The notes beneath the pieces are model-generated. The model saw only the letters and a program-made list of their open reading frames with translations. It did not search any database and was not told where the DNA came from. DNA of 64,000 nt from contig NZ_CP166625.1 of NCBI RefSeq assembly GCF_041320595.1, forward strand, positions 1,189,501 through 1,253,500, given 5' to 3'. This DNA comes from Pleomorphomonas sp. PLEO. GTDB lineage: Bacteria; Pseudomonadota; Alphaproteobacteria; Rhizobiales; Pleomorphomonadaceae. Every line of letters begins with the position of its first letter. Position 1 is the stretch's first letter. Of the stretch, positions 31,122 to 44,094 are shown in pieces. The position numbers and the translations under genes were made by a program.

Positions 31122-31859
31122 ATGTTCGAAAGAGACTCCACCATCGGCACCATGAGTGCTCAGGTCGCGCGAATCATCGGCACCCGCATCGTTTCAGGCG
31201 AATTCGGCCCCGGCGACTCGCTGCCGATCGAAGCCGAGCTTTGCCAAGAGTATGGGGTCAGCCGCTCGACGGTGCGCGAGGCGGTGAAGAATCTCGCGGC
31301 CAAACGGCTGATCGAGGTGGCGCCCAAAGTCGGAACGCGGGTTCTGCCCTTCGCCGACTGGAACCTGCTTGACCCCGACGTGCTCTCCTGGCGCCTCAGC
31401 GCCCAGTTCGACGAGCAGATCATCGAGGATCTCTACGAGGTGCGGCAGTGCTTCGAGCCGCGTGCCTGCTATCTCTCCGCCCGCTACGCCACCACCGAGG
31501 ACCACGATCGCATCAGCCGGCGCTATACGGACATGGTTTCGATGCTGGATCAGGCGCCGCTCGCCGCCGGTGCCGAAAGCGAGTTCCACCTCGCCATCAT
31601 CGCGGCGACGCACAACGGCCTGTTCGTCACCATCGGGGGCGCCGTCAAGACGGCGCTCAAGGCATCCTTCAGCCTGACGCAGAAGGATGCCAGCGGCACG
31701 CCGATCGACCTCGCCCCCTATGAGGAGGTTCTGTCGGCCATCCTGGTGCGCGATGGCGAGCGCGCCGAGGCGGCGATGCGGCGGCTCTTGGACCTGTCGC
31801 GCCAACGTGTCCTGAAGGCGGTCGCCCATAATCGCGAGCGCAGCCGCGGCTGGCGCTGA
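31122..31859 (+). CDS. GntR family transcriptional regulator, FadR/FCD subfamily
   Basis: A 245-residue repressor-type regulator. The N-terminal winged helix (residues 8-75) contains LPIEAELCQEYGVSRSTVREAVKNL, and the C-terminal FCD ligand domain shows the expected Asp/His metal-site region (EFHLAIIAATHN). The WNLLDPDVLSW linker is typical of sugar-acid and sugar FCD regulators. Divergent from the arabinoside transporter operon, so it probably represses it until a pathway sugar binds. Confidence 0.87.
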   Translation: MFERDSTIGTMSAQVARIIGTRIVSGEFGPGDSLPIEAELCQEYGVSRSTVREAVKNLAAKRLIEVAPKVGTRVLPFADWNLLDPDVLSWRLSAQFDEQIIEDLYEVRQCFEPRACYLSARYATTEDHDRISRRYTDMVSMLDQAPLAAGAESEFHLAIIAATHNGLFVTIGGAVKTALKASFSLTQKDASGTPIDLAPYEEVLSAILVRDGERAEAAMRRLLDLSRQRVLKAVAHNRERSRGWR

Positions 31860-31868
31860 TTTGTAAAG

Positions 31869-33512
31869 TCAAAGCCCGAGCCAGCCGACCGACTTTTTCT
31901 CAGCCTCGTCCTTTGCTTCGGCGTAGCCGGCGTCGGCGTAGCGGATGACGCCCAGCGACGTGTCGTTGGTGAGCGACAGTTCGAGGCGACGGTCGGCCGC
32001 GGCGGTGCCATCGGCAACCAGCGTCACGCCGGCCGAGGTCATGAAGCCGGCATAGCCGCCGCCGCCCGAATGGACGACCACGAGGTCGGCCATCGATGAA
32101 CAGAGCAGCATGGCGTCGATCAGCGGCCAGTCGGCGATGGCGTCGGAGCCGTCCTTCATCTTCTCGGTCATGATGTTGGGGTGGGCCATGGCGCCGGCGT
32201 CGAGGTGATCGCGCGAGAAGGCGACCGGCCCCTTCAGCGCGCCGTCCCGCACCATCGCATTGACGGCGAGCGCCAGCTCGGTACGTGCGCCGTGGCCGAG
32301 CCAGGCGATGCGGGCCGGTAATCCCTCGAAGGGGACGTTTTCCCGCGCCAGCTTGATCCAGTTGCCGACGATGCGGTCGTCGGGGAATAGCTCCAGCACC
32401 TTGTCGTCGATCCTGGCGATATCCTGGGGGTCGCCGGAAAGCGCCATCCAGCGGAACGGGCCGATCGCTCTTGCGAACAGCGGTCGTAGGTAGGCCTCGG
32501 TGAAGATCGGAATATCGAAGGCATTGGCAACGCCGCCATCACGGGCGTGGGTGCGGATAAGGTTGCCGTTGTCGAACACCTCGGCGCCGGCCTTTTGAAA
32601 ATCGAGCATGGCCGAGACGTGGACGGTAATGGCGGCGCGGCTTTCGGCCATCAAGGTCGCCGGATCGGTCTTGCGCAGGGCTCGCGCCTCGGTGAGCGTG
32701 CGGGTGTTGGGAACGTAGCCGTAGACAAGGTCGTGGGCGGCGGTCTGGTCGGTGACGACGTCGGGAATGATGCCGCGGCGAAAGATCTCCGGATAGACGT
32801 CAGCGGCGTTGGCGACGAGGCCGACCGATAGAGCGCGTCCTTCCGCCTTGGCAGCGAGCACCATGGCAAGAGCGGCATCGAGGTCGGGCGCGATGGCGTC
32901 GAGATAGCCGATCGCCTTGCGCTTTTCCGCCCTTTCCGGATCGATGTCGACGCAAAGGATGCTCGCACCGGCCATGCGGCCGGCCAGCGGCTGCGAACCG
33001 CCCATGCCGCCGAGGCCGGCGGTCAGCACGAAGCGACCCTTCAGTGTGCCACCGAAGCGTTTTTCGGCGATGCGCATGAAGATCTCGTAGGTGCCCTGGA
33101 TGACGCCCTGGCTGCCGATGTACTGCCAGGCGCCGGCCGTCAGTCCGCCCCAGCAGATCAGGCCCTTTTCCTGCAGCTCATAGAACACCTCGGCCTTGGC
33201 CCATTGTCCGACGATGTTGCAGTTGGCCATGATGACCAGCGGCGCTTCAGCGTGCGTCCTGAGAAGGCCGACCGGCTTGCCCGACTGGATCAGCAGCGTC
33301 TGATCCTCGTCCATCGTCTTCAGTGTCTCGACGATCCTGTCGTGTGCCGCCCAGTTGCGGGCGGCGCGACCGAGCGAGGCGTAGACGATCAGATTGTCCG
33401 GGTCTTCGCCCACCGACAGCACGTTTTCGAGAAGGCGCAGCAGCGCCTCCTGCCGCCAGCCCTTGGCGCGCAAGGTGGAGCCGCCGGGCGTCGGAAAGCG
33501 GGGATTGGCCAT
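31869..33512 (-). CDS. Urocanate hydratase homologue, probably (S-methyl)thiourocanate hydratase
   Basis: A 547-residue NAD-dependent hydratase of the urocanase family. The NAD-binding motif TAGLGGMGGSQPLAGRMAGAS is kept. Several positions invariant in true urocanases are changed: the Cys of the ARICWVG block is Ala (A403, ARIAWLG), the HHGGGVG block reads HSGGGGY (481-487), and FDYGN reads FDNGN (313-317). Together with a DUF917 protein and hydantoinase in the same operon, this favours hydration of a 2-thio or 2-methylthio-substituted urocanate rather than urocanate. It is the last of nine genes and is convergent with the GntR gene, 9 bp apart. Ordinary HutU remains the fallback call. Confidence 0.75.
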   Translation of the reverse strand: MANPRFPTPGGSTLRAKGWRQEALLRLLENVLSVGEDPDNLIVYASLGRAARNWAAHDRIVETLKTMDEDQTLLIQSGKPVGLLRTHAEAPLVIMANCNIVGQWAKAEVFYELQEKGLICWGGLTAGAWQYIGSQGVIQGTYEIFMRIAEKRFGGTLKGRFVLTAGLGGMGGSQPLAGRMAGASILCVDIDPERAEKRKAIGYLDAIAPDLDAALAMVLAAKAEGRALSVGLVANAADVYPEIFRRGIIPDVVTDQTAAHDLVYGYVPNTRTLTEARALRKTDPATLMAESRAAITVHVSAMLDFQKAGAEVFDNGNLIRTHARDGGVANAFDIPIFTEAYLRPLFARAIGPFRWMALSGDPQDIARIDDKVLELFPDDRIVGNWIKLARENVPFEGLPARIAWLGHGARTELALAVNAMVRDGALKGPVAFSRDHLDAGAMAHPNIMTEKMKDGSDAIADWPLIDAMLLCSSMADLVVVHSGGGGYAGFMTSAGVTLVADGTAAADRRLELSLTNDTSLGVIRYADAGYAEAKDEAEKKSVGWLGL

Positions 33513-33526
33513 GATCGTTCCCTCCC

Positions 33527-34624
33527 TCAGACAGTGGCGCCGAGCGCATAGCGGGCGATATCGATGCCCATCGCCTTTTCCACCGGCGGGTAGACGGTGG
33601 GGTCGAGCACCGAGGAGCCCAGCGGAATCAGCGTTTTCGGCACATGCAGCACGAAGATGGTCATGCCCTCTTCGAGCTGGCCGACCGACAGCGGCTCGCC
33701 GGCGGTGTTGAGCGTGGTGATGACGTCGGGGAAGGTGGCGATGCGTCGTCCGTCGGCGTCGTCGACCGCCATGTATTCATTCATGACGTGGAGCGTCGTC
33801 GCTCGCTTGCCGCTTTCGAGCGTCACCGTGCCGATGTCGAAGGCTTCCTTGGTGTAGACGACCGCCTTCCTGGTGATGCGGCCCTCGGAGAGCAGCGTGC
33901 CGCCGGTGGTCTTGAGGATGGCGTCGATCACCGCCGCGCCGCCCTTGTCCTCGGCGTCGAGGATAGCCTCGCCGAGGGCGAGCGCCATGGATATGCCGCC
34001 CAGCGCCGCGTTGGCCTTAACGTAGGCGGCGGTGACGGGCGCGCGGCAGGAGGCGATGAAGCCGCCGGACATGTCGGAGGCGGTGCGCAGGATTGGCGAC
34101 ACCTTGGCGGTGGCGCCGCGCACCACGAGTTCTATGTAGCGGTTCTCAGCGCGGTTGCCGCCGACGGCGGTTTGTATGGTCGGTGTCGGCGAGCCGGCAA
34201 GGCCGATCGAGCCCATGTCGCCGGTGGGGTGCGCACGAATGTCGCCGACGGCGTCGACCACCTTGGCGCCGAGCGCCACGGCCGGCAGCCAGCCATTCAG
34301 CGTCGACGAGCGGCCGTTCTGACCGACCATGAAGCCGGCGATTGTCTTGCCCAGCGCTTCCTGCAGCAATTGGGCGGCCTTGACGTAGTCGATGCCCTGC
34401 ATCTCCCAGGGAGTTGTGCCGGCCGGCGCACCGATGGCCGCCGCCGTGGCGACGATCGCCTCGGGGTCGAGTTCGTTGACCGAGACCAGCTCCGGCTTGC
34501 CCATGCGGACGGCGGCGCCCCCCAGCATCAAGCCGTGGTCGACCCAGCCGCCGCCACCGGCGGCGTAGACCGAGCCGCCGCGCACGGCGGCCTCGACGTC
34601 GCTGAGCGTGAGAATGCGGCCCAT
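33527..34624 (-). CDS. DUF917 family protein, candidate S-methyl thiohydantoin desulfurase
   Basis: A 365-residue protein of the former DUF917 family (PF06032). The conserved N-terminal AAGGGGWVDHGL and the central VVDAVGDIRAHPTGDMGS are present, and there is no signal peptide. To my recollection the family has been redescribed as S-methyl thiohydantoin desulfurase; relatives also sit next to hydantoinases. It would remove the sulfur substituent from the hydrated imidazole ring and give hydantoin-5-propionate. It lies 4 bp from the carbamoylase and 14 bp from the urocanase homologue, so co-transcription is near certain. Confidence 0.75.
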   Translation of the reverse strand: MGRILTLSDVEAAVRGGSVYAAGGGGWVDHGLMLGGAAVRMGKPELVSVNELDPEAIVATAAAIGAPAGTTPWEMQGIDYVKAAQLLQEALGKTIAGFMVGQNGRSSTLNGWLPAVALGAKVVDAVGDIRAHPTGDMGSIGLAGSPTPTIQTAVGGNRAENRYIELVVRGATAKVSPILRTASDMSGGFIASCRAPVTAAYVKANAALGGISMALALGEAILDAEDKGGAAVIDAILKTTGGTLLSEGRITRKAVVYTKEAFDIGTVTLESGKRATTLHVMNEYMAVDDADGRRIATFPDVITTLNTAGEPLSVGQLEEGMTIFVLHVPKTLIPLGSSVLDPTVYPPVEKAMGIDIARYALGATV

Positions 34625-34628
34625 GGGT

Positions 34629-35882
34629 TCACTCCGTATCTTGGCGCGCGTCGAGGCGCCGGATGGTTTCGATCAGCACATCGGTGCCGAGGGCAATCGC
34701 CGAGGGCTCCGCCCATTCGTCGGGGGAATGGCTGCGGCCGCCCCGGCAGGGGACGAACAGCATGGCGGCCGGCGCGATGCGCGCGAAGAACGCCATGTCG
34801 TGGCCGGCACCGGAGGCCATGCGGTGATGCGTGGCACCGGCCGCCTCGGCGGATGTTTCCAACAGCGAGACCAGTGCCGGATCTGAGGGCGTCGGTTGAT
34901 TGTCGGACACGAGGCGCGGTTCGGCGATTGTGATGGCGCGACGGGCTGCTACCTCGGCCACGACGCGCGTGAGGTCGGTGAGGAAGGCGTCCATATCGGC
35001 GCGACGCTCGGCGCGGGCGTCGATCAGCATGCGAGCCGACGACGGTATGACATTGGCGGCGCCGGGCAGGATGGAGAATTCGCCGACGGTGGCCGCGAAA
35101 TGGGCATCGCCTCGCGACCGTTCCAGCGCCAGCTGCTCGACGGCGGTCACCAGATCGGCGGCGGCGACCAGCGCGTCGGCCCGCGCCGTCATCGGCGTGG
35201 TACCGGCATGGTCGGCTCTACCGGTGACGATAATCTCGACACGGGTGATGCCGGCAATGGCCGTAACGATGCCGACGTCCAAGTGATCGGCCTCGAGTAC
35301 TGGTCCTTGCTCGATATGCAACTCCAGGAAGGCGGCGATATCGGATCGCCTGGCGTCCTTGAGGTGGGCGGGGTCGCCGCCCACGTCTTTGATGCCCTCG
35401 GAAAGGGCAAGACCGTCGGCGGTGCGGTCCAGCCAGTCCTCCGGCAAAACGCCGGCGATGGCCCGGGAGCCAATGCAGGAGACGCCGAAGATCGACACTT
35501 CCTCGGCGAGGCAGTCGATCACCTCGAGATCATGGTCGAGCTCAATACCGCGTTCGTTGAGGACGCGCACGATTTCCAGCCCGGCGATGACGCCGGCAAT
35601 GCCGTCGAACCGGCCACCGTCCGGCACCGTGTCCGAATGCGAGCCGACGGCGAGCACGCCTTTACCAGGCACGCGTCCTGGCCGGCGACCGATCATGTTG
35701 CCGGCGGCGTCGATACGCACTGTCAGGCCGGCATCGACCATCGCTTTTTCGACATGCGCGCGTCCGTCGAGGAAGCGTGGCGTGAACGCACGGCGCGTCC
35801 AGGGACGATCGGGATCGGTCAGCGCGGCCAGCGCGTCGATATCGACGGCGATGCGGTCAGCGCGGGCGAGGCGGTTGGTCAT
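34629..35882 (-). CDS. M20 family amidohydrolase, probable N-carbamoyl-L-amino-acid hydrolase
   Basis: A 417-residue zinc hydrolase of the allantoate amidohydrolase / N-carbamoyl-L-amino acid hydrolase (HyuC/AmaB) branch. Metal-ligand motifs are VGSHSDTVPDGGRFDG (H82, D93), the CLAEEVS Glu pair (127-128) and ELHIEQG. A lid domain follows (TGRADHAGTTPM). It overlaps the hydantoinase gene by 4 bp (ATGA). Next to a hydantoinase it should hydrolyse an N-carbamoyl amino acid to the free amino acid, CO2 and ammonia; in this operon the natural candidate is N-carbamoyl-glutamate. Confidence 0.85.
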   Translation of the reverse strand: MTNRLARADRIAVDIDALAALTDPDRPWTRRAFTPRFLDGRAHVEKAMVDAGLTVRIDAAGNMIGRRPGRVPGKGVLAVGSHSDTVPDGGRFDGIAGVIAGLEIVRVLNERGIELDHDLEVIDCLAEEVSIFGVSCIGSRAIAGVLPEDWLDRTADGLALSEGIKDVGGDPAHLKDARRSDIAAFLELHIEQGPVLEADHLDVGIVTAIAGITRVEIIVTGRADHAGTTPMTARADALVAAADLVTAVEQLALERSRGDAHFAATVGEFSILPGAANVIPSSARMLIDARAERRADMDAFLTDLTRVVAEVAARRAITIAEPRLVSDNQPTPSDPALVSLLETSAEAAGATHHRMASGAGHDMAFFARIAPAAMLFVPCRGGRSHSPDEWAEPSAIALGTDVLIETIRRLDARQDTE

Positions 35883-37252
35883 TGCGAAATCACCCGCGTC
35901 AATGGCGGTCGCACGAAACGACCACGACCGGGCTCGGCGACCACCGTCGTTCCATCGAACACGCCTTCGCCCCGGTTGTAGGTGGCAGCGACGCGCCAGG
36001 GCAGTGTCATGCCGTTATAGGGCGACCAGCCGACCACGGTGTTGCCGCTCTTCTCGGCATCGTAGACATAGGGTTCCGGCGTCATCACCACGATATCGGC
36101 ATCGCGGCCGACGGCGAGCGCCCCCTTGACGTGATCAATGTGGAAATGGCGGGCCGGGTTTTGTGCCATCAGCCGCGCCGCCCAGGTGAGCGGTATGCCG
36201 CGCTCCAGTGCGCCCTTGACGAACAGCGGCAGCATCGCCTCGAGGCCGGGGGCGCCGGAGGCGTTCTTCAGCATGTCCGGATCGGTCTTGCGCTCTTCCG
36301 ACCAGGCGACATGGTCGGTGGAGACCAGCCAGACGTTTCCGGCGGCGACGTGGCGCCACAGCGTCTCCACCTCGGCACGCGGTCGGATCGGTGGGTTGAT
36401 CTTGGCCTTGCCGCCAAGGCGGGCAACGTCGTGTTCTTCATCGAGCGTCAGGTAATGGATGCAGGCCTCGGCTGTCGCCCTATGGCCTTCGGCGCGGTAG
36501 CGGGCGGCAAGCTCATAGCCGCGCCCCACCGAACAATGGACGACGTGGGCGTCGCAGCCGGTGGCGGCGCCGATCTCATAGATCTCGGCCATGGCCAGCG
36601 TCTCGGTGATCGGCGGTCGGGAGAGGCCGTGGGCACGCCAGTCGGTGATGCCAGCCGCCAGCACCTTGGCCATGTAGGCTTCGACAGCCTCGTGGTTCTC
36701 ATTGTGAACGCCGGCGGTGAGGCCGAAAGGGGCGATCGCTGCGAAGGCGTCGTAGAGCATTTCGGGCGGGATGCGGGGAAAGCGCGTCGGGTGGGTGCCG
36801 AAGGTCGAGAACTTGAAGGCGGCGACGCCGGCTTCGATCATCTCGGGTATTCGGCTTGTACCCTCCGCGGGGTCAATGGTGCCGTGCAGCGCGAAGTCGA
36901 CGCGTGCCTGACTTTCCGCATGGGCGACCTTGCGTTTGACGGCATCGGCCGAGTTGACGACGTCGCCTTCGTCATAGGGCATGTCGACTATGGTGGTGAC
37001 GCCGCCGGCCGCCGCTGCTCGTGTCGACCAGATGAAGTCTTCCTGCCCCTTCTGGCTGAGCGAATGCACTTGGGCGTCGATGGCGCCGGGCAGGATCAGC
37101 GCCTCGCCGAGGTCGTGGCGGATGTGGGCTGCCGGGGCGACGCCCTGGCCGACCATTATGATCTTGCCGGCTGAAACGGCGACGAAGCCGCGCGGCACCA
37201 GCTCGCCCGGCAGAACCAGCGTGCCGGCGAGGACGAGGTCGAAATCGGACAT
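35879..37252 (-). CDS. Hydantoinase/dihydropyrimidinase-like cyclic amidohydrolase
   Basis: A 457-residue amidohydrolase of the dihydroorotase/allantoinase/hydantoinase type. It has the carboxylatable Lys (K147, AFKFSTFG), His at 183 (GVHNEN), a His in HVVHCS (239) and Asp at 313 (STDHVAWS). The first metal motif, normally HxH, reads QVH (61-63), so one ligand is replaced. The reaction expected from context is hydrolytic opening of a hydantoin ring to the N-carbamoyl acid used by the next enzyme. It overlaps the carbamoylase by 4 bp. Confidence 0.8.
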   Translation of the reverse strand: MSDFDLVLAGTLVLPGELVPRGFVAVSAGKIIMVGQGVAPAAHIRHDLGEALILPGAIDAQVHSLSQKGQEDFIWSTRAAAAGGVTTIVDMPYDEGDVVNSADAVKRKVAHAESQARVDFALHGTIDPAEGTSRIPEMIEAGVAAFKFSTFGTHPTRFPRIPPEMLYDAFAAIAPFGLTAGVHNENHEAVEAYMAKVLAAGITDWRAHGLSRPPITETLAMAEIYEIGAATGCDAHVVHCSVGRGYELAARYRAEGHRATAEACIHYLTLDEEHDVARLGGKAKINPPIRPRAEVETLWRHVAAGNVWLVSTDHVAWSEERKTDPDMLKNASGAPGLEAMLPLFVKGALERGIPLTWAARLMAQNPARHFHIDHVKGALAVGRDADIVVMTPEPYVYDAEKSGNTVVGWSPYNGMTLPWRVAATYNRGEGVFDGTTVVAEPGRGRFVRPPLTRVISQ

Positions 37253-37255
37253 GGC

Positions 37256-38023
37256 TCAGGTCTCCATCTGCGGGCGGGCGCCGCGCCGTTTTGCCGCGTT
37301 GCGCGCCACGGCCTGGAAGCTGTCGGAAATCAGCACCGCCAGGATGCCGGTGATGACGCCACCCTGGACGATGAAGGCGAGATTGTTGGACAGGAGGCCG
37401 GCGACGATCACTTCGCCGAGCCCCTTGGCAGCCACCGTCGAGCCGATGGTGGCCGTGGCGAGGCCGATGACGGCCGACAGGCGGATACCCTCGATGATCA
37501 ATGGCATGGCGAGCGGCAGTTCGACCTTCAAGAGGCGCTGGCGGTTGGTCATGCCCATCGCCGACGCGGCCTCGACAACGGCGGGCGGCAGCGTCGACAG
37601 GCCGACGAGCGTATTCTCGAAGATTGGCAACAGGCCATAGAGGAACAGCGCCATGCGCGTTGGCGCTTCGCCAAAACCCATGGCCGGCACCGACAGCGCC
37701 AGGACGGCTACCGGCGGGAAGGTCTGGCCGATGTTGACCACGGCGCGCGACAGGGCGAGGAACTCCATGCCGGCCGGCCTCGTGACGAAGATGGCGAGGC
37801 CGACCGCCACGACGGCGGCGGCCAGCGTCGAGACGCCGACGGTGAACAGGTGCGACAGCGTCAGGTCGATCAGGCTGCCCTGATTGTAGATCGGTGGCGC
37901 GCCATTTTCGGTCAACGGTGCCAGCAGTCCGGCGAAGCGATCCGGCGCCAGCAGGAAGGTGATGAGCGCCAGAAAGACGATCAGTCGCAGGATGTTGCCA
38001 AGACGGAACAGGTCGCGGTTCAT
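37256..38023 (-). CDS. Betaine-type ABC transporter permease (OpuCB/YehW-like)
   Basis: A 255-residue permease with about six helices, of the osmoprotectant/quaternary amine uptake family. The ATPase-contact region reads VEAASAMGMTNRQRLLKVELPLAMP, as in OpuCB/ProW proteins. It overlaps the ATPase gene by 4 bp and is the second permease of the transporter, whose other permease lies upstream of the ATPase. In a catabolic operon the substrate is likely a quaternary ammonium compound used as food rather than for osmoprotection. Confidence 0.87.
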   Translation of the reverse strand: MNRDLFRLGNILRLIVFLALITFLLAPDRFAGLLAPLTENGAPPIYNQGSLIDLTLSHLFTVGVSTLAAAVVAVGLAIFVTRPAGMEFLALSRAVVNIGQTFPPVAVLALSVPAMGFGEAPTRMALFLYGLLPIFENTLVGLSTLPPAVVEAASAMGMTNRQRLLKVELPLAMPLIIEGIRLSAVIGLATATIGSTVAAKGLGEVIVAGLLSNNLAFIVQGGVITGILAVLISDSFQAVARNAAKRRGARPQMET

Positions 38024-38958
38024 TGCGGCCGCGCCGCCCGTCCGGCGATGCTGTCAAGGCTGACGCGGCCGATCGGCGCGCCAGCGGCATCGACCACCGG
38101 CGCGGCCTTGCGGCCAGACCAAAGCAGTGCGCCGAGGCCTTCGTAGAGGCTGGCGTCGGCGTTGAGTGGCGCGCCATCGGCTTCGCCCGGTTCGACCGCC
38201 GAGCCCACCGCGCCGAGCGTCAGGTAGTGGAACGGCCGATCGAGCGCGCCGATCAGGTCGTCGACGAAACCGTCGGCCGGGCGGGCGAGAATGTCGGCGG
38301 CCGGCGCGTATTGCTTCAGGCGGCCGCCATCCATGACGGCGATACGGTCGCCGAGGTGGACCGCCTCGGCCATGTCGTGGGTGACCAGCAGGATGGTGGT
38401 GCCAGTGCGGCGCTGGATGGCCTTGAGGTCGGTTTGCGCCTTGGCGCGGATGATCGGGTCGAGCGCGCCGAACGGTTCGTCCATCAGGAGCAGGGCGGGT
38501 TTGGCCGCCATCGCCCGGGCGACGCCGACGCGCTGCTGTTGACCGCCGGACAGTTCATGCGGATATCGGTTGGCGAACTGATCGTGATCGAGCTGGAACA
38601 GCTCCATCAACTCTTCGACCCGCGCTGCGACCTTTTTCCGATCCCAGCCGAGCAGCATCGGCACGGTGGCAATGTTGCGCGCGACGGTCCAGTGCGGGAA
38701 CAGGCCGTGGTTCTGGATGGCATAGCCGATGGAGCGACGAAGTTCGTAGGCCGGCAGCCCCGACACGTCACGTCCTTCGATGAAGACGCGGCCTTCGGTC
38801 GGCTCGATCAGCCGGTTGACCATGCGCAACAGCGTCGACTTGCCCGAGCCGGATGTGCCGACGATGACGGTGATGGTGCCGGACTCGATTACCATGTTGA
38901 CGTCGTTGACGACGGCGATGTCGCCATAGACCTTGGTGAGATGGCTGAGTTCGATCAT
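38020..38958 (-). CDS. Betaine-type ABC transporter ATP-binding protein (OpuCA/YehX-like)
   Basis: A 312-residue ATPase with Walker A GTSGSGKST, Q-loop, signature LSGGQQQRVGVARAM and Walker B LLLMDEPFGALD. A C-terminal extension of about 80 residues replaces the two full CBS domains of OpuCA/ProV (ending GRVSLDSIAGRAARP), so regulation by ionic strength is doubtful. It overlaps both permease genes by 4 bp, indicating translational coupling. Confidence 0.9.
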   Translation of the reverse strand: MIELSHLTKVYGDIAVVNDVNMVIESGTITVIVGTSGSGKSTLLRMVNRLIEPTEGRVFIEGRDVSGLPAYELRRSIGYAIQNHGLFPHWTVARNIATVPMLLGWDRKKVAARVEELMELFQLDHDQFANRYPHELSGGQQQRVGVARAMAAKPALLLMDEPFGALDPIIRAKAQTDLKAIQRRTGTTILLVTHDMAEAVHLGDRIAVMDGGRLKQYAPAADILARPADGFVDDLIGALDRPFHYLTLGAVGSAVEPGEADGAPLNADASLYEGLGALLWSGRKAAPVVDAAGAPIGRVSLDSIAGRAARPQ

Positions 38959-40139
38959 GCCTTGCCTCCGCCGGAAATCTCGATAACGGCGTCAAGCACG
39001 ACGGCGGCGGCGAAGGCCAACGCCACCGGTGGCAGTGCGCCGAGCAGGATGAGGTCGGTGGCCGTCTGGCCGAGCCCCTGGAACAGGAAAACGCCGAAGC
39101 CGCCGCCGCCGATCAGCGCCGCTATCGTGGCAAGGCCGATGTTCTGGACGAGGACGATGCGGATGCCGGTGAGAACTACCGGCAGGGCCAGCGGTATTTC
39201 CACCTGGAAGAGCCGCTGACGTTCGGTGAGACCCATGCCGCGCGCGGCGTCGACCACGGCGCGCGACACGCCGGAAAGGCCGACCACGGTGTTGGCGACC
39301 ATCGGCAGCAACGAATAGAGGAACAGTGCCAGGAAGGCCGGCGCCATGCCGATGCCGCGAATGCCGAGGGCATGCCCGCCCGGTATGTTGGCGGCGATCC
39401 AGCCGAGCGGAGCGATCAGGATGCCGAATAGCGCCATCGACGGGATGGTCTGGATGATGTTGAGGACGTTGATCAACGGGTCGCGGACGGCGCGAACCTG
39501 ATAGGCGAGGACGCCGAGTGGCAGGCCGACGGCGAGGGCGGCGGCGAGCGATCCGGCGGCAAGTATCAGGTGCGTGCCCGCTTCGCGCCAGAATACGTCG
39601 GCGCGGCTACGATATTCGGCCAGCAGTGACAGGTGGCTCCAGGCGCCCGAGGCGAGGAGGGCGGCAATCAGCCCCGCAGTGACGACGAGGGCAATGAGCC
39701 GGCTGACCGGACCGAGCTTCAGCCGCACCATGGCATCTGTGACCAGCATGGCGGTGGCAAACAGGGCGAGCCAGAAGCCGCTGGCCGGTGCGATGCGGGC
39801 GTAGGTGTCGCCCTCCGGCGTCAGATGGGCACCGGCGGCACCGGCTCCGAGAGCCAGGGCGGCGAGGGCCAACGCGCCCAGGGCGAGGCGGAACGTAGGC
39901 CAGCGGCTCGCCACGGCCGTCACCAGGGCGGCGACCAACACGACGGCGACCGACACGGCGACGAGCACAGGCAGCGCATCGAACAGTCTGAGCCCGTTTC
40001 CCGAGGCGATGCGGTTTGCCCGGAAGGTGACGAAAGGCAGCGCCAGTGACCCGGCGACGAGGATGGCGATGACGACGCCGAGACGGTCGACCCGCGGCGT
40101 GGCGGTCCCGTCCATTTCGGCGTCTGCGAGCGTCGTCAT
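38955..40139 (-). CDS. Betaine-type ABC transporter permease (YehY-like, long form)
   Basis: A 394-residue permease with about four extra N-terminal helices before the conserved permease domain, as in YehY. The contact loop reads VDAARGMGLTERQRLFQVEIPLALP. It is preceded by the binding-protein gene and overlaps the ATPase gene. The four-gene order (binding protein, long permease, ATPase, short permease) equals the YehZYXW-type osmoprotectant systems. Confidence 0.87.
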   Translation of the reverse strand: MTTLADAEMDGTATPRVDRLGVVIAILVAGSLALPFVTFRANRIASGNGLRLFDALPVLVAVSVAVVLVAALVTAVASRWPTFRLALGALALAALALGAGAAGAHLTPEGDTYARIAPASGFWLALFATAMLVTDAMVRLKLGPVSRLIALVVTAGLIAALLASGAWSHLSLLAEYRSRADVFWREAGTHLILAAGSLAAALAVGLPLGVLAYQVRAVRDPLINVLNIIQTIPSMALFGILIAPLGWIAANIPGGHALGIRGIGMAPAFLALFLYSLLPMVANTVVGLSGVSRAVVDAARGMGLTERQRLFQVEIPLALPVVLTGIRIVLVQNIGLATIAALIGGGGFGVFLFQGLGQTATDLILLGALPPVALAFAAAVVLDAVIEISGGGKA

Positions 40140-40196
40140 GGCAATCCTCGAAAAAGGGGAGAGCGGAGGGGCGAGGCTCCTCCGCCGGAGGTTTTG

Positions 40197-41105
40197 TTAC
40201 TTCAGGAAGCCCTTGGACTTCAGATAGTCCTCGGCGACCGCCTTGGCCGGCTCGCCGCCGATCTGGACGCGGGCGTTGAGGGTCTGCAGCGTCACGAGAT
40301 CGAGGCTCTCGAAGATCGGCTTCAGCGTGTCGGCGATCGCCGGGTTGGCCTTCAGCACCTCTTCGCGGACGATGGCGGTCGGCTGGTAGACCGGCTGCAC
40401 GGCCTTGTCGTCATTGAGTACCACGAGGCCGGACGGGGCGATGGCGCCGTCGGTGCCGTAGACCATGGCGGCGTTGGCACCATTGGTCTGGTCGGCCGCC
40501 GCCTTGATGGTGGCCGCCGTGTCACCGCCGGACAGCACGATCAACTGCTCGGGCGTCAGCTTGAAGCCATAGGTGGTCTGGAAGGATGGCAGCGCCGAGG
40601 CCGAATTGACGAACTCGGCCGAGCCGGCCAGCTTGACCTCGCCGCCCTTGGTCACCCAGGCGCCGAAGTCGCTGAGCGACTTGACGCCGGCCTTGTCGGC
40701 GACGTCCTTGCGCAGCGCGATAGCCCAGGTGTTGTTGGCCGGCGACGGCGTCAGCCAGACGATCTTGTTGGCGTCATAATCGAGCTTCTTGGCTTCCTCA
40801 AAGGCCTTGGCGGCATCCTTCCACAGCGGGTCGTCGGCCTTGTTGAAGAAGAAGGCGGCGTTGCCCGTGTACTCGGGATAAATGTCGATCTCGCCGGCCG
40901 TGATGGCCTTGCGCACCACCGGCGTGCCGCCGAGCTGGATGCGATCCTCGACCTCGATGCCGGAATTCTGAAGGGCAAGCAGAATAATATTGCCGATAAC
41001 GCCGCCTTCGGTGTCGATCTTCGAGGACACCACGACCTTTGCATCGGCTGTGCCGGCGAAAAAGCCGAGGGCAAGCGCGGCGGCAGCGTATTTCAAATGG
41101 GTCAT
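40197..41105 (-). CDS. Periplasmic binding protein, OpuAC/YehZ (OsmF) type
   Basis: A 302-residue binding protein with signal peptide (YAAAALALGFFAGTADA). The early motif SKIDTEGGVIGNIILLAL and the EIDIYPEYTGNAA block are hallmarks of the glycine betaine/choline-type OpuAC fold. The ATG at 41105 has GGAG upstream; the longer frame is rejected because its first 18 residues are polar. Ergothioneine importers (EgtU) belong to this fold family, so a trimethylammonium thio-histidine is a reasonable ligand given the operon. Confidence 0.85.
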   Translation of the reverse strand: MTHLKYAAAALALGFFAGTADAKVVVSSKIDTEGGVIGNIILLALQNSGIEVEDRIQLGGTPVVRKAITAGEIDIYPEYTGNAAFFFNKADDPLWKDAAKAFEEAKKLDYDANKIVWLTPSPANNTWAIALRKDVADKAGVKSLSDFGAWVTKGGEVKLAGSAEFVNSASALPSFQTTYGFKLTPEQLIVLSGGDTAATIKAAADQTNGANAAMVYGTDGAIAPSGLVVLNDDKAVQPVYQPTAIVREEVLKANPAIADTLKPIFESLDLVTLQTLNARVQIGGEPAKAVAEDYLKSKGFLK

Positions 41106-41183
41106 CACTGTTCTCCTGGCTGGTAGCGGGTAATCCCGTTCTATTTTTTCAGTCTTCACCGGCCATTGAGAGGCACGGCATTC

Positions 41184-42794
41184 TCAGGCGCTGTCGAAAA
41201 TAGCAAAAAAGCCGTCGAAATCTGGCAGTGGTGAAGTTTTCCCGAACTCGGCGATCCGCGCCGGGGAGGCCAGATCGGCGGCAATCGCTTCGATCTCCTG
41301 CGACAGTTGCCGATCACGATCATGCGGTGCGGCAAGGCGACGCACAGCGGTATAGACGCGGCCGGCAAGGCCTTCGGGGCGAAGACCGGCCACGTCGAGA
41401 GCGGCGGCGGCGATCAGCGCTTCGAGCGCCGCCAACAGGTCCAGCGCGTCGAGCGCGCGGGAAAGGTTTTCAACGGCGAGCGGCAGGAAGGTCGCCTCGT
41501 CTTCCAAACCATCGGCGACCACAACCGGTTCCGTCGATACCGGCATGGTGAGGTGGCGGACACGGGCGAACAGTTCGCCCGCCAGCTTCAGCACTGGACC
41601 AAAACCGGTCATCGTTGCGCCCGGCGCCACGAGGTTTACTGGCAGGTTCACGAGCCGGCCGTTGACGAGGAGGATGCAGCGGTTCATGGCATTGCGCGCC
41701 AGATGAGCGAGGGCCAGTGCCGCGCCTTCGATGGCGAGCGTCAGGTCGAGCGGCATCGATCCGCCCGAAGACAGAATGGTGCCGCCGATCAACACCGGGT
41801 TGTCGTCGTTGCGGGCCGTATCGGCAACAGCGACACGGCCGGCGGCTTCCACGGCATCGATCGCAGCGGCGAACACCTGCGGCATCATGCGCAAGCTCAG
41901 CGGGTCATGGATGCGATCGCCGGGTGGAATGGCCGATTCGGTTCGGGCGGTATCGAGCCAGCGACCGATTTCCGCCTGGCGAGGCGTGCCGAGAACGGTG
42001 GCGGCCAGCGCAGGCGCCGGCAGTGAGCCGGCTGCCGATGCCGCGGCAAGTCCCGTCGCCATCAAAGTGCGCAGCGTACCGGCGGCGCGACCGATGGCCG
42101 ACGCGGCGAGCGCCACGCCAGCCGCATTGGAGCTCAAGGCCGCGAGACTGTCCTTGACGCCGCATTCGTGGATCGTCAGGCCGGCCCTGGCGATGGCTTC
42201 GGAGGCCGGCAACCGGACACCGGCGAGCATCGCCTCGCCCTCTCCGGCAAGCGCTGCGCCCACCTGCCCCATCAAGCCAATGTCGCCGGTCCCAAGCGAG
42301 CCGATCGGCCGAAGCAGAGGGGTCAATCCGGCATTCAGCCAGGCAACCAGCTGACGGACGAGGCCGGGCGTCGAGCCGGTGTGGCCGGCGAGCATGGTGT
42401 TGGCGCGGATCGCCATGGCAAGGCGAGTGACCGTTACCGGCAGCGGCGTGCCGACGCCGAAGGAATGGGCGATGACGAGGTCGGCGTTGAAGCGGGCGAG
42501 ATCTTGCGGCGACGGCGTCCAGTCCTTCATGGCGCCAACGCCGGTGTTGGCACCGTAGACGATGGCGCCGGAAGCCAGGGCTTCCTCGAAGGCCGCCCGA
42601 GCGGCGGCGACGGCGGCCAGCGCCCCTTCGTCGATCACCACGGCGTCGGCCCCGGTCGACAGACGGCGTATCGCCGTGAAATGCAGCGGCTTGCCATCAA
42701 GCACCACGGCACCGACACCCGCTGCCACCGCTTCCAGCACGGCAAGGCCCGTCGATGTACCTTCGGGGATTTCGGAAGAAGACAATTCGGACAC
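41184..42794 (-). CDS. MIO-less histidine ammonia-lyase homologue, candidate ergothionase (trimethylamine lyase)
   Basis: A 536-residue member of the aromatic amino acid lyase family. The catalytic Tyr loop is kept (YGANTGVG, residues 80-87). The Ala-Ser-Gly triad that cyclizes into the MIO electrophile in histidine ammonia-lyase is Gly-Thr-Gly (168-170, in SLGTGDIG). Without MIO, deamination of histidine is unlikely; elimination of a better leaving group such as trimethylamine is plausible and matches the ergothionase branch. The GTG start at 42794 has AAAGG upstream; the frame extends further only by overlapping the divergent regulator. It is the first gene of the nine-gene operon. Confidence 0.78.
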   Translation of the reverse strand: MSELSSSEIPEGTSTGLAVLEAVAAGVGAVVLDGKPLHFTAIRRLSTGADAVVIDEGALAAVAAARAAFEEALASGAIVYGANTGVGAMKDWTPSPQDLARFNADLVIAHSFGVGTPLPVTVTRLAMAIRANTMLAGHTGSTPGLVRQLVAWLNAGLTPLLRPIGSLGTGDIGLMGQVGAALAGEGEAMLAGVRLPASEAIARAGLTIHECGVKDSLAALSSNAAGVALAASAIGRAAGTLRTLMATGLAAASAAGSLPAPALAATVLGTPRQAEIGRWLDTARTESAIPPGDRIHDPLSLRMMPQVFAAAIDAVEAAGRVAVADTARNDDNPVLIGGTILSSGGSMPLDLTLAIEGAALALAHLARNAMNRCILLVNGRLVNLPVNLVAPGATMTGFGPVLKLAGELFARVRHLTMPVSTEPVVVADGLEDEATFLPLAVENLSRALDALDLLAALEALIAAAALDVAGLRPEGLAGRVYTAVRRLAAPHDRDRQLSQEIEAIAADLASPARIAEFGKTSPLPDFDGFFAIFDSA

Positions 42795-42839
42795 GCTCGT
42801 TACCTTTCGCCGGCGAGGATAGGCCAAGGTTGCGAGGGC

Positions 42840-42851
42840 AGGGATATCCCT
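42840..42851. promoter_or_regulatory. Candidate operator between lyase operon and LysR-type gene
   Basis: A perfect 12-bp palindrome, AGGGATATCCCT, followed by TATATC, in the roughly 125-bp divergent intergenic region. LysR-type regulators often bind such dyads next to the controlled promoter and their own start. Confidence 0.5.
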
Positions 42852-42921
42852 ATATCTGAACAGCCTATGTCTGGCTTCTGGCGCTGCCTCGGACTTGGTC
42901 ACTCGCTCGGATCTGCCGCTT

Positions 42922-44094
42922 ATGGATACAGCAGCCCTCATCATTTGCGATAGCGTTTTGCGCATGGCATCGCTCAGAGGCGCGGCACGGGCACTCGAAC
43001 GACCGATTGGAAGTGTGGCGGCAGCCTTCCGACGGGTGGAGGCGGCGCTCGCCGTCGATCTAGCCTTCGCTGCCGGCTCCAGTCTGACCTTCACATTCGA
43101 AGCACGCCGCATCGGGACGGATCTCTCTCACATCGCTAGCCTCGCCATGAAGATCGCGCGCGGCGACGAACTGGAAGAGGGACGTCGGCTGGCCGCCGCT
43201 CGCCCGCTGTCTCTTCTGGCGCTTCAGCACCTCGTCGACACGCTCGACGCCGGCAGTATCCGCACGGCGGCTCGACGCCTCGGCATTGGCCAGCCGCAGT
43301 TGTCGCGCCAACTCGCCCACCTGGAAGACAAGCTCGGGACACGGCTGCTCGATCGGAGCGCCGAGGGATGCCGACCAACGGCGGACGGGGAAAGGGTGGC
43401 GGCGCTGGCGTCCGAACTCCTCGCGCGTTGGACCTTGCTCACCAGCACATCGGCGCGTGACTTCCGGCGACAGATCACCACGCTCCGGCTGGGCAGCATC
43501 GTGCCGCTCGGCCACGAGAGCCAGATCGCCCGCATGCTGGCCGACCTCGTCGCAGTCTGGCGGCAACCGGGGCGGCGCAGCCACCTGATGCTGAAGAGCT
43601 CGACGGCCGAGGAGCTGATCTCCGAACTGAAGGCGGGGCGGCTCGATTTCGTTCTCGTCGACATGGTGATCGCAAGCGACGATCTCCAGGGTATCGAGAT
43701 CGATCGCTCCCGCCTGGCTGTGGTCGGGCCGGTCGGCTTCCGGGAGCGTTGTCGTGATCCGGTGGAAGCTTTGCGCCGCGAGCCGGTGGCGGTACCCACC
43801 GCTCGGTCAGGTTTGCGCCGCGCCGTCCACGATCTGCTCGATGCCGGCGGCGAACGCAGTGACCAGACGCCCGCCAACTTCACCGAGATCGATTCGATCC
43901 CGGTGATCATCAACCTGGTGCGTGAGCATGGCTATCTCTCCGTGCTGCCCAAGGTCTCGGTTGATGGCGTCATCGGCGGCATCGAGGCGGTGGAACTGTC
44001 CGCCGCCTTCGACTTGCCCATCTGCCTTGCCTGGGTGAAGGCCCGCGACCTCGGACAGATCGCCGCTGAGATCATCCGGGATATAAGGAGCTGA
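42922..44094 (+). CDS. LysR-like regulator with two tandem helix-turn-helix domains
   Basis: A 390-residue regulator that differs from ordinary LysR proteins (about 300 residues). Residues 3-60 look like a degenerate LysR HTH (SLRGAARALERPIGSVAAAFRRVEA). Residues about 92-155 hold a second, canonical one (SIRTAARRLGIGQPQLSRQL with LGTRLLDRS). The C-terminal part is a LysR substrate-binding domain (LRLGSIVPLGHESQ onward). The start is uncertain: a TTG at 42895 or the ATG at 42922, which begins right at the first HTH. Divergent from the lyase operon, so it probably controls it. Confidence 0.75.
   Translation: MDTAALIICDSVLRMASLRGAARALERPIGSVAAAFRRVEAALAVDLAFAAGSSLTFTFEARRIGTDLSHIASLAMKIARGDELEEGRRLAAARPLSLLALQHLVDTLDAGSIRTAARRLGIGQPQLSRQLAHLEDKLGTRLLDRSAEGCRPTADGERVAALASELLARWTLLTSTSARDFRRQITTLRLGSIVPLGHESQIARMLADLVAVWRQPGRRSHLMLKSSTAEELISELKAGRLDFVLVDMVIASDDLQGIEIDRSRLAVVGPVGFRERCRDPVEALRREPVAVPTARSGLRRAVHDLLDAGGERSDQTPANFTEIDSIPVIINLVREHGYLSVLPKVSVDGVIGGIEAVELSAAFDLPICLAWVKARDLGQIAAEIIRDIRS

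Follow-up and report, generated by a model that had tools for sequence, protein, structure and literature searches.

What compound is broken down by an operon in which relatives of histidine ammonia-lyase (HAL) and urocanase stand together with a betaine-type importer, a hydantoinase-like enzyme, an M20 hydrolase and a DUF917 protein? The question is posed by a stretch of 64,000 nucleotides (the window, to whose positions all coordinates of the operon refer) from the 5.48-Mb single-contig genome of Pleomorphomonas sp. PLEO, in which nine co-directional genes on the minus strand, 31869-42794, adjoin a divergent gene for a LysR-type regulator. The answer is very probably ergothioneine, a compound that fungi and certain bacteria produce and that builds up in animals, with the operon serving as a self-contained set of genes for its use as a source of nitrogen and carbon. 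The microbes that remove ergothioneine are poorly mapped. The pathway itself is already known, having reportedly been reconstituted in vitro by Beliaeva, Leisinger and Seebeck in 2021, and curated NCBIfam models exist for it; notable here are a divergent branch of lyase, an importer within the operon and a regulator with tandem helix-turn-helix (HTH) domains.

In the proposed route an OsmF-type ABC importer would bring ergothioneine into the cytoplasm, where a lyase devoid of the 4-methylideneimidazol-5-one (MIO) group would split it into thiourocanate and trimethylamine. Thiourocanate would then be hydrated to a thiohydantoin by thiourocanate hydratase, a DUF917-type desulfurase would convert this to hydantoin-5-propionate with release of sulfide, ErtD would open the ring to give N-carbamyl-L-glutamate and ErtE would yield glutamate, CO2 and ammonia, the operon being under the presumed control of the divergent LysR-type protein. 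A first-pass annotation, made from the letters of the sequence, had proposed such a succession of import, loss of trimethylamine, hydration, desulfuration, ring opening and formation of glutamate, and the gene set fits it, with four of the enzymes passing models for their steps. The substrate it named, “(S-methyl) ergothioneine”, and the “sulfide or methanethiol” that it had released can be narrowed: ergothioneine itself and sulfide stand, the thiohydantoin desulfurase model being passed, and the S-methyl form and methanethiol are disfavoured, as both S-methyl models stay below their cut-offs. Compared with the known five-step bacterial catabolism of ergothioneine, the enzyme roles are equal and four of the five window enzymes pass its models; the differences lie in a lyase from a separate branch for which there is no model, and in the presence of an ABC importer and a LysR gene within the locus.

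Curated models and conserved linkage

The hydratase, the desulfurase, ErtD and ErtE all exceed the NCBIfam cut-offs for ergothioneine breakdown (scores in the table), and the last of them also exceeds two general models (PRK12893.1-5, 641.1 against 486; TIGR01879, 346.4 against 204). The expectation that a hydantoinase and an N-carbamoyl hydrolase lead by way of hydantoin-5-propionate to glutamate is borne out by the ErtD and ErtE matches. On the S-methyl models, the hydratase reaches 739.3 with NF058531 (cut-off 880) and the DUF917 protein 285.8 with NF058532 (cut-off 450), both below the mark. The hydratase does pass the hutU model TIGR01228, at 700.1 against a loose cut-off of 375, as S-methyl and thiourocanate hydratases do too. 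Two control hydratases, from Agrobacterium tumefaciens Ach5 pAt (975.1) and Lichenihabitans psoromatis (970.5), exceed the S-methyl cut-off, and on the thiourocanate model they reach only 724.6 and 712.5, below the 930 set there; HutU of the Pleomorphomonas genome gets 990.4 with the hutU model and is below cut-off on the other two, and a Deinococcus hydratase passes neither the thiourocanate nor the S-methyl model. The profile searches that had been proposed for the hydratase and the DUF917 protein thus place both with the unmethylated thio forms. Its best solved relative (794 bits), titled only as a urocanate hydratase, is one which we take to be the Paenibacillus thiourocanate hydratase. 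Among the literature matches listed there was no paper devoted to thiourocanate hydratase or to the desulfurase.

Linkage of the ert genes exceeds chance. When named genomes were scanned with a desulfurase alignment, 401 relatives came up; the top 80 were retained, every one with an alphaproteobacterial title, mostly Rhizobiaceae by name, and the nearest named match, at 93% in the desulfurase, is Pleomorphomonas koreensis. The hydratase accompanies the desulfurase in 80 of these 80 loci, ErtD and ErtE in 79 each and the lyase in 77, so the gene neighbourhood, for which a check had been suggested, is conserved across genera. The loci without a lyase (L046, L075 and L079) each end at a contig end, and one locus (L062) has no match to ErtD or ErtE. 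A LysR gene is present in 44 of the 80, and three or all four of the ABC genes in 13. Desulfurases over cut-off were found in 5 of 385 genomes of the class and 6 of 398 of the phylum, with the Pleomorphomonas genome counted in both.

The nine genes and their divergent regulator lie where they were first described. Outward from the regulator the order is lyase, substrate-binding protein, permease, ATPase, permease, hydantoinase, M20 hydrolase, DUF917 protein and urocanase homologue. The 4-bp overlaps, earlier given as “several”, number three (38955-38958, 38020-38023 and 35879-35882); the remaining downstream intergenic gaps are of 3, 4 and 14 bp, and gaps of 78 and 57 bp lie either side of the binding-protein gene. 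Overlaps and gaps as short as these fit a single transcript. Two start codons were corrected by eye, that of the lyase to a GTG at 42794 and that of the binding protein to an ATG at 41105, ahead of a signal-peptide-like stretch. Domain and family scans of the operon detected no hutI, hutG or hutF, in agreement with the first-pass annotation, and the genome carries all three elsewhere.

Table 1. Genes of the operon and its divergent regulator, with window coordinates, strand and the matches on which each naming is based.
Feature	Position	Strand	Matches and traits
Lyase, ergothionase-like, proposed ErtA role	41184..42794	-	PF00221; GSLGTGD, without MIO triad; best PDB 6s7j
Periplasmic substrate-binding protein, OsmF type, signal-peptide-like start (by eye)	40197..41105	-	NF049931, 498.9 (cut-off 400)
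ABC permease 1	38955..40139	-	PF00528
ABC ATPase, betaine/proline type	38020..38958	-	PF00005; best NCBIfam TIGR01186, 270.6, below cut-off of 326.6
ABC permease 2	37256..38023	-	PF00528
ErtD, hydantoin-5-propionate amidohydrolase	35879..37252	-	NF058538, 781.1 (cut-off 600)
ErtE, N-carbamyl-L-glutamate amidohydrolase	34629..35882	-	NF058540, 588.4 (cut-off 520)
Thiohydantoin desulfurase, DUF917 / S-Me-THD-like	33527..34624	-	NF058529, 584 (cut-off 440)
Thiourocanate hydratase	31869..33512	-	NF058530, 1018.1 (cut-off 930); best PDB 7ned
LysR-type regulator with second, degenerate N-terminal HTH	42922..44094	+	HTH_1 at 100-157; LysR_substrate

A lyase without the MIO triad

To judge by its sequence the lyase is no histidase, as it lacks the MIO triad, is closest among solved structures to an ergothionase and shares several changes with ergothionases. 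The MIO-forming Ala-Ser-Gly is absent and Gly-Thr-Gly-Asp stands instead, one residue shorter, and HutH models remain far below cut-off (TIGR01225, 203.9 against 539; a second model, 214 against 524). No Pfam or NCBIfam ergothionase model matched it, and none in NCBIfam matched the Burkholderia-type lyase, so that annotation can easily mistake enzymes of this sort for histidine or aromatic lyases. The top solved match by sequence is the ergothionase of Treponema denticola (6s7j, 153 bits), which, like the window lyase, has a HAL-like fold without MIO, Lys after GVGxx, DDNP, FGxxxK and Leu at the position of HAL Tyr280. Common to these two and to the lyases of Burkholderia arboris and Paracoccus denitrificans, and unlike MIO-type HAL, are Lys-Asp after GVGxx, Ser-x-Asn near the HAL Asn, the DDNP and FGxxxK motifs, and Leu or Ile replacing Gln before Glu-Asp; the Leu at Tyr280, present in all four, is shared by the GSVGY lyases (1gkj is a Y280F mutant of HAL). 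Motifs were counted in 84 lyase rows for which the window lyase was the best query, a set that takes in that lyase and has two places twice: all 84 are without MIO (GASGD in 0 of 84) and have D[DE]NP and GxE[DE], 83 each have GVGxxK[DERS], the KD/S-x-N type and the FG...K type, and 78 have the [QH]D[PQ]L[SA] type.

An AlphaFold2 model of the lyase, built from 28 rows and with a mean pLDDT of 87.1, is by TM-score closest to 6s7j (TMt 0.92-0.93, root-mean-square deviation 2.3), the values being 0.88 and 3.0 for Thermoplasma HAL and 0.86-0.87 and 3.3-3.7 for Pseudomonas putida HAL. An unrooted tree was made of 22 rows, those of G262 and Deinococcus being long and uncertain. In it 12 alphaproteobacterial ert lyases form a single deep branch (100/100), and this shares one side (98/96) with the lyases of T. 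denticola, B. arboris, P. denitrificans and Deinococcus, the other side being made up of four MIO-type lyases and two of the GSVGY kind; seen from HutH, the window lyase is placed beyond the ergothionases. A grouping of lyase and hydratase with HutH and HutU, which the first-pass annotation had named as the outcome that would tell against it, is not what these comparisons give, the lyase being without MIO and the hydratase of the thiourocanate type. Elimination of trimethylamine from ergothioneine is the activity predicted for the lyase from these resemblances.

When the lyase profile was run over the 385 class genomes, four scores of 668-880 were followed by none above 283; all four high scorers are rows of the query alignment, and the informative part is the lack of further ones. 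A BLAST survey of 2026 found ergothionase to be rare and carries its own warning of divergent homologues (PMC13405746); the branch to which the window lyase belongs may be among those that it missed.

Importer and regulator

The binding protein is 77% identical to the solved chains 5teu and 4nd9 and 66-67% identical to the ert-linked binding proteins of Martelella and Ochrobactrum, and its sole match in its own genome is itself. A quick tree of such proteins holds two outside chains only and cannot show whether the ert-linked ones form one clade. The ergothioneine ABC transporter EgtU likewise has a binding protein of the quaternary-ammonium type, with a cage pattern N339-x-Y341 at which the window protein has, by eye, NNTW; unlike EgtU, the window's binding protein is separate from the permeases (PMC9732360). 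EgtUC chains score at most about 90 bits against the window protein and the best OsmF chain 475, and as the OsmF model was also passed, an importer of the EgtU type is not supported by sequence.

Among the 385 class genomes OsmF is present in 10 (E 1e-60 or better), a desulfurase over cut-off in 5 and both in 4 (hypergeometric P 1.2e-6, or 3.5e-5 without the Pleomorphomonas genome). Exclusive service of the OsmF importer to ert is not supported, OsmF genes being found outside ert loci as well, and it is for this reason from operon position that we infer ergothioneine import by the window transporter. The EgtD family PF10017 had no match in the genome (other routes of ergothioneine synthesis were not searched), so ergothioneine may come from outside; MttB had no match either, with other trimethylamine routes not searched.

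A wider census was made of 101 locus entries, each having a strong desulfurase match; short stubs, plasmid loci and places entered twice are among them. Three or more ABC genes occur in 16 of the entries, namely those of Pleomorphomonas, Chthonobacter, an Ancalomicrobiaceae metagenome-assembled genome, three Martelella, five Devosia, UR115 twice, Ochrobactrum, where the ABC genes are on the far side of the regulator, and two others. One Ensifer locus has an ABC transporter of a different type past the hydratase, on the opposite strand; the scanned flanking open reading frames (ORFs) of one Rhizobium locus include no ABC transporter, and in an annotated Rhizobium plasmid locus none directly adjoins the ert genes.

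Tandem HTH domains are unusual for a LysR-type protein. In the window regulator the N-terminal copy (42922-43200) is degenerate, with 16.4 bits on HTH_1 against the Pfam cut-off of 26.6, and the copy listed in the table passes. Nine other ert-linked LysR proteins were scanned, out of a pool of 51 LysR ORFs that includes the window's, and each has two stretches that HTH_1 matches with an E-value of 0.01 or lower; seven of the nine were taken stop to stop and two as annotated. Among the literature matches listed, no title was about a tandem-HTH LysR. Were the lyase and importer confirmed, ergothioneine-degrading rhizobia and their relatives would be recognisable by sequence, and a candidate sensor protein for ergothioneine, the presumed ligand, would be gained.

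Rival substrates and variant clusters

That the operon is an ordinary duplicate of histidine-utilisation genes, HutH plus HutU, is what the family names and the hutU score would suggest, and yet it is highly improbable and was rejected on the missing MIO triad, the HutH scores and the separate hut set of the genome, to which the lack of hutI, hutG and hutF in the operon adds. In that set hutH, hutG and hutI lie side by side (685.3, 384.5 and 441.3, all over cut-offs), hutU and hutF are at another place, also over cut-offs, and hutC is present too. In favour of S-methyl-ergothioneine as the actual substrate, from which the desulfurase step would release methanethiol, it can be said that DUF917 is now within the Pfam S-Me-THD families and that the hydratase also has a match to the S-methyl model; this is nevertheless improbable, as the S-methyl hydratase and desulfurase models are both below and the unmethylated ones both above cut-off, and the Ach5 and Lichenihabitans hydratases, which the comparison covers, score the opposite way, in clusters where lyase motif and gene content differ. 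There is slight probability, too, that the main substrate is ergothioneine sulfonate, another oxidised form or a selenium analogue (selenoneine). A divergent lyase branch could have shifted in substrate, and a title cited in PMC13405746 reports a pathway for ergothioneine sulfonate in Agrobacterium radiobacter, but the operon holds a thiohydantoin desulfurase over cut-off, whose homologue occurs together with the lyase in 77 of the 80 best loci, and a sulfonate route would not be expected to need one.

Several points weigh against ergothioneine and against the roles given here to lyase and importer. The lyase's lead over histidases is modest, 153 bits for 6s7j against 142 for Thermoplasma HAL and 138 for P. 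putida HAL; it is just 26-27% identical to the T. denticola enzyme and in a separate branch from it, and in Foldseek the top 6s7j chain and a P. putida HAL chain tie in E-value. A separate origin of the ert lyase branch is possible, since the tree is unrooted, and so is another trimethylammonium compound as lyase substrate. At L036:7561-12602 (G086) a thiourocanate hydratase (962.5 against 930) and a desulfurase stand beside a MIO-type HAL-like lyase with GASGDLAPL, the sole one of that type among the thiourocanate-type loci seen. Where transport is concerned, just three of the ten OsmF-bearing class genomes have the protein inside an ert operon, one OsmF relative of 74% has no ert genes in 19 kb, and none of the census entries from Rhizobium, Ensifer or Shinella has three or more ABC genes.

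With ergothioneine use kept as the preferred reading, the variant clusters suggest a division into ergothioneine importers, lyase exporters and thiourocanate scavengers. The B. arboris and P. denitrificans lyases (L146:14700-17758 and L153:14746-17897) have N-termini that by eye are signal-peptide-like, each gene coming directly after one for an MFS transporter; a periplasmic ergothionase would need a carrier for thiourocanate. In Paracoccus aminophilus pAMI4 and Thalassospira marina pCSC3H3 a TRAP transporter accompanies the later enzymes, with no lyase in about 25 kb, and G646 has an ABC transporter of polar-amino-acid type with no match to lyase or ErtE in 19 kb. The lyase-free ert clusters, two with a TRAP transporter (L145 and L149) and one with another ABC importer (L187), are possible thiourocanate scavengers. 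The balance is even on the broader proposal that the cytosolic lyases constitute a distinct Hyphomicrobiales ergothionase lineage, accompanied in some genera by an OsmF-type importer, as a Gram-negative means of uptake for catabolism, and by a tandem-HTH LysR, with an exported lyase and MFS transporter, or lyase-free uptake of thiourocanate by TRAP or ABC systems, found elsewhere.

The S-methyl-type clusters of A. tumefaciens Ach5 pAt and a Lichenihabitans plasmid are like the window in having a DUF917 protein, a hydratase and two hydrolases together and unlike it in that the hydratase passes the S-methyl model. A glutathione S-transferase is encoded in both (L150 and L155); the Ach5 cluster further encodes a molybdopterin S/N-oxide reductase and a lyase of the GSVGY kind, and L155 a MIO-type lyase.

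A second lyase with its MIO triad deleted is present in the Pleomorphomonas genome, as the terminal gene of a hut cluster (L040:7783-16532, within G000:C1:3276001-3296000) that also comprises hutU, hutC, hutF and an ABC transporter; the sequence concerned is GSVGYLSHMAHIA. Its counterparts occur in 10 of 150 genomes of the order, this one included (E 1e-100 or better), and the triad is missing in all ten; eight adjoin homologues of the ABC genes and hutC, and five of those eight hutF as well. Hercynine is a possible substrate of this lyase, in which case the products would be urocanate and trimethylamine. More HAL-family proteins without the triad, with GSIGAGD or GSIGAAD, are found in other Alphaproteobacteria (L161, L162 and L163).

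Two adjacent distant DUF917 genes at G000:C1:4662401-4664478 (L041) stay below the cut-off of the desulfurase model, with 92 and 110 bits, and have ABC transporter genes nearby; they are not ert genes. On the other flank of the operon from the regulator, a plus-strand gene recognised by eye as GntR-like (31122-31859) converges on it, and more likely belongs with the sugar-type ABC genes that precede it.

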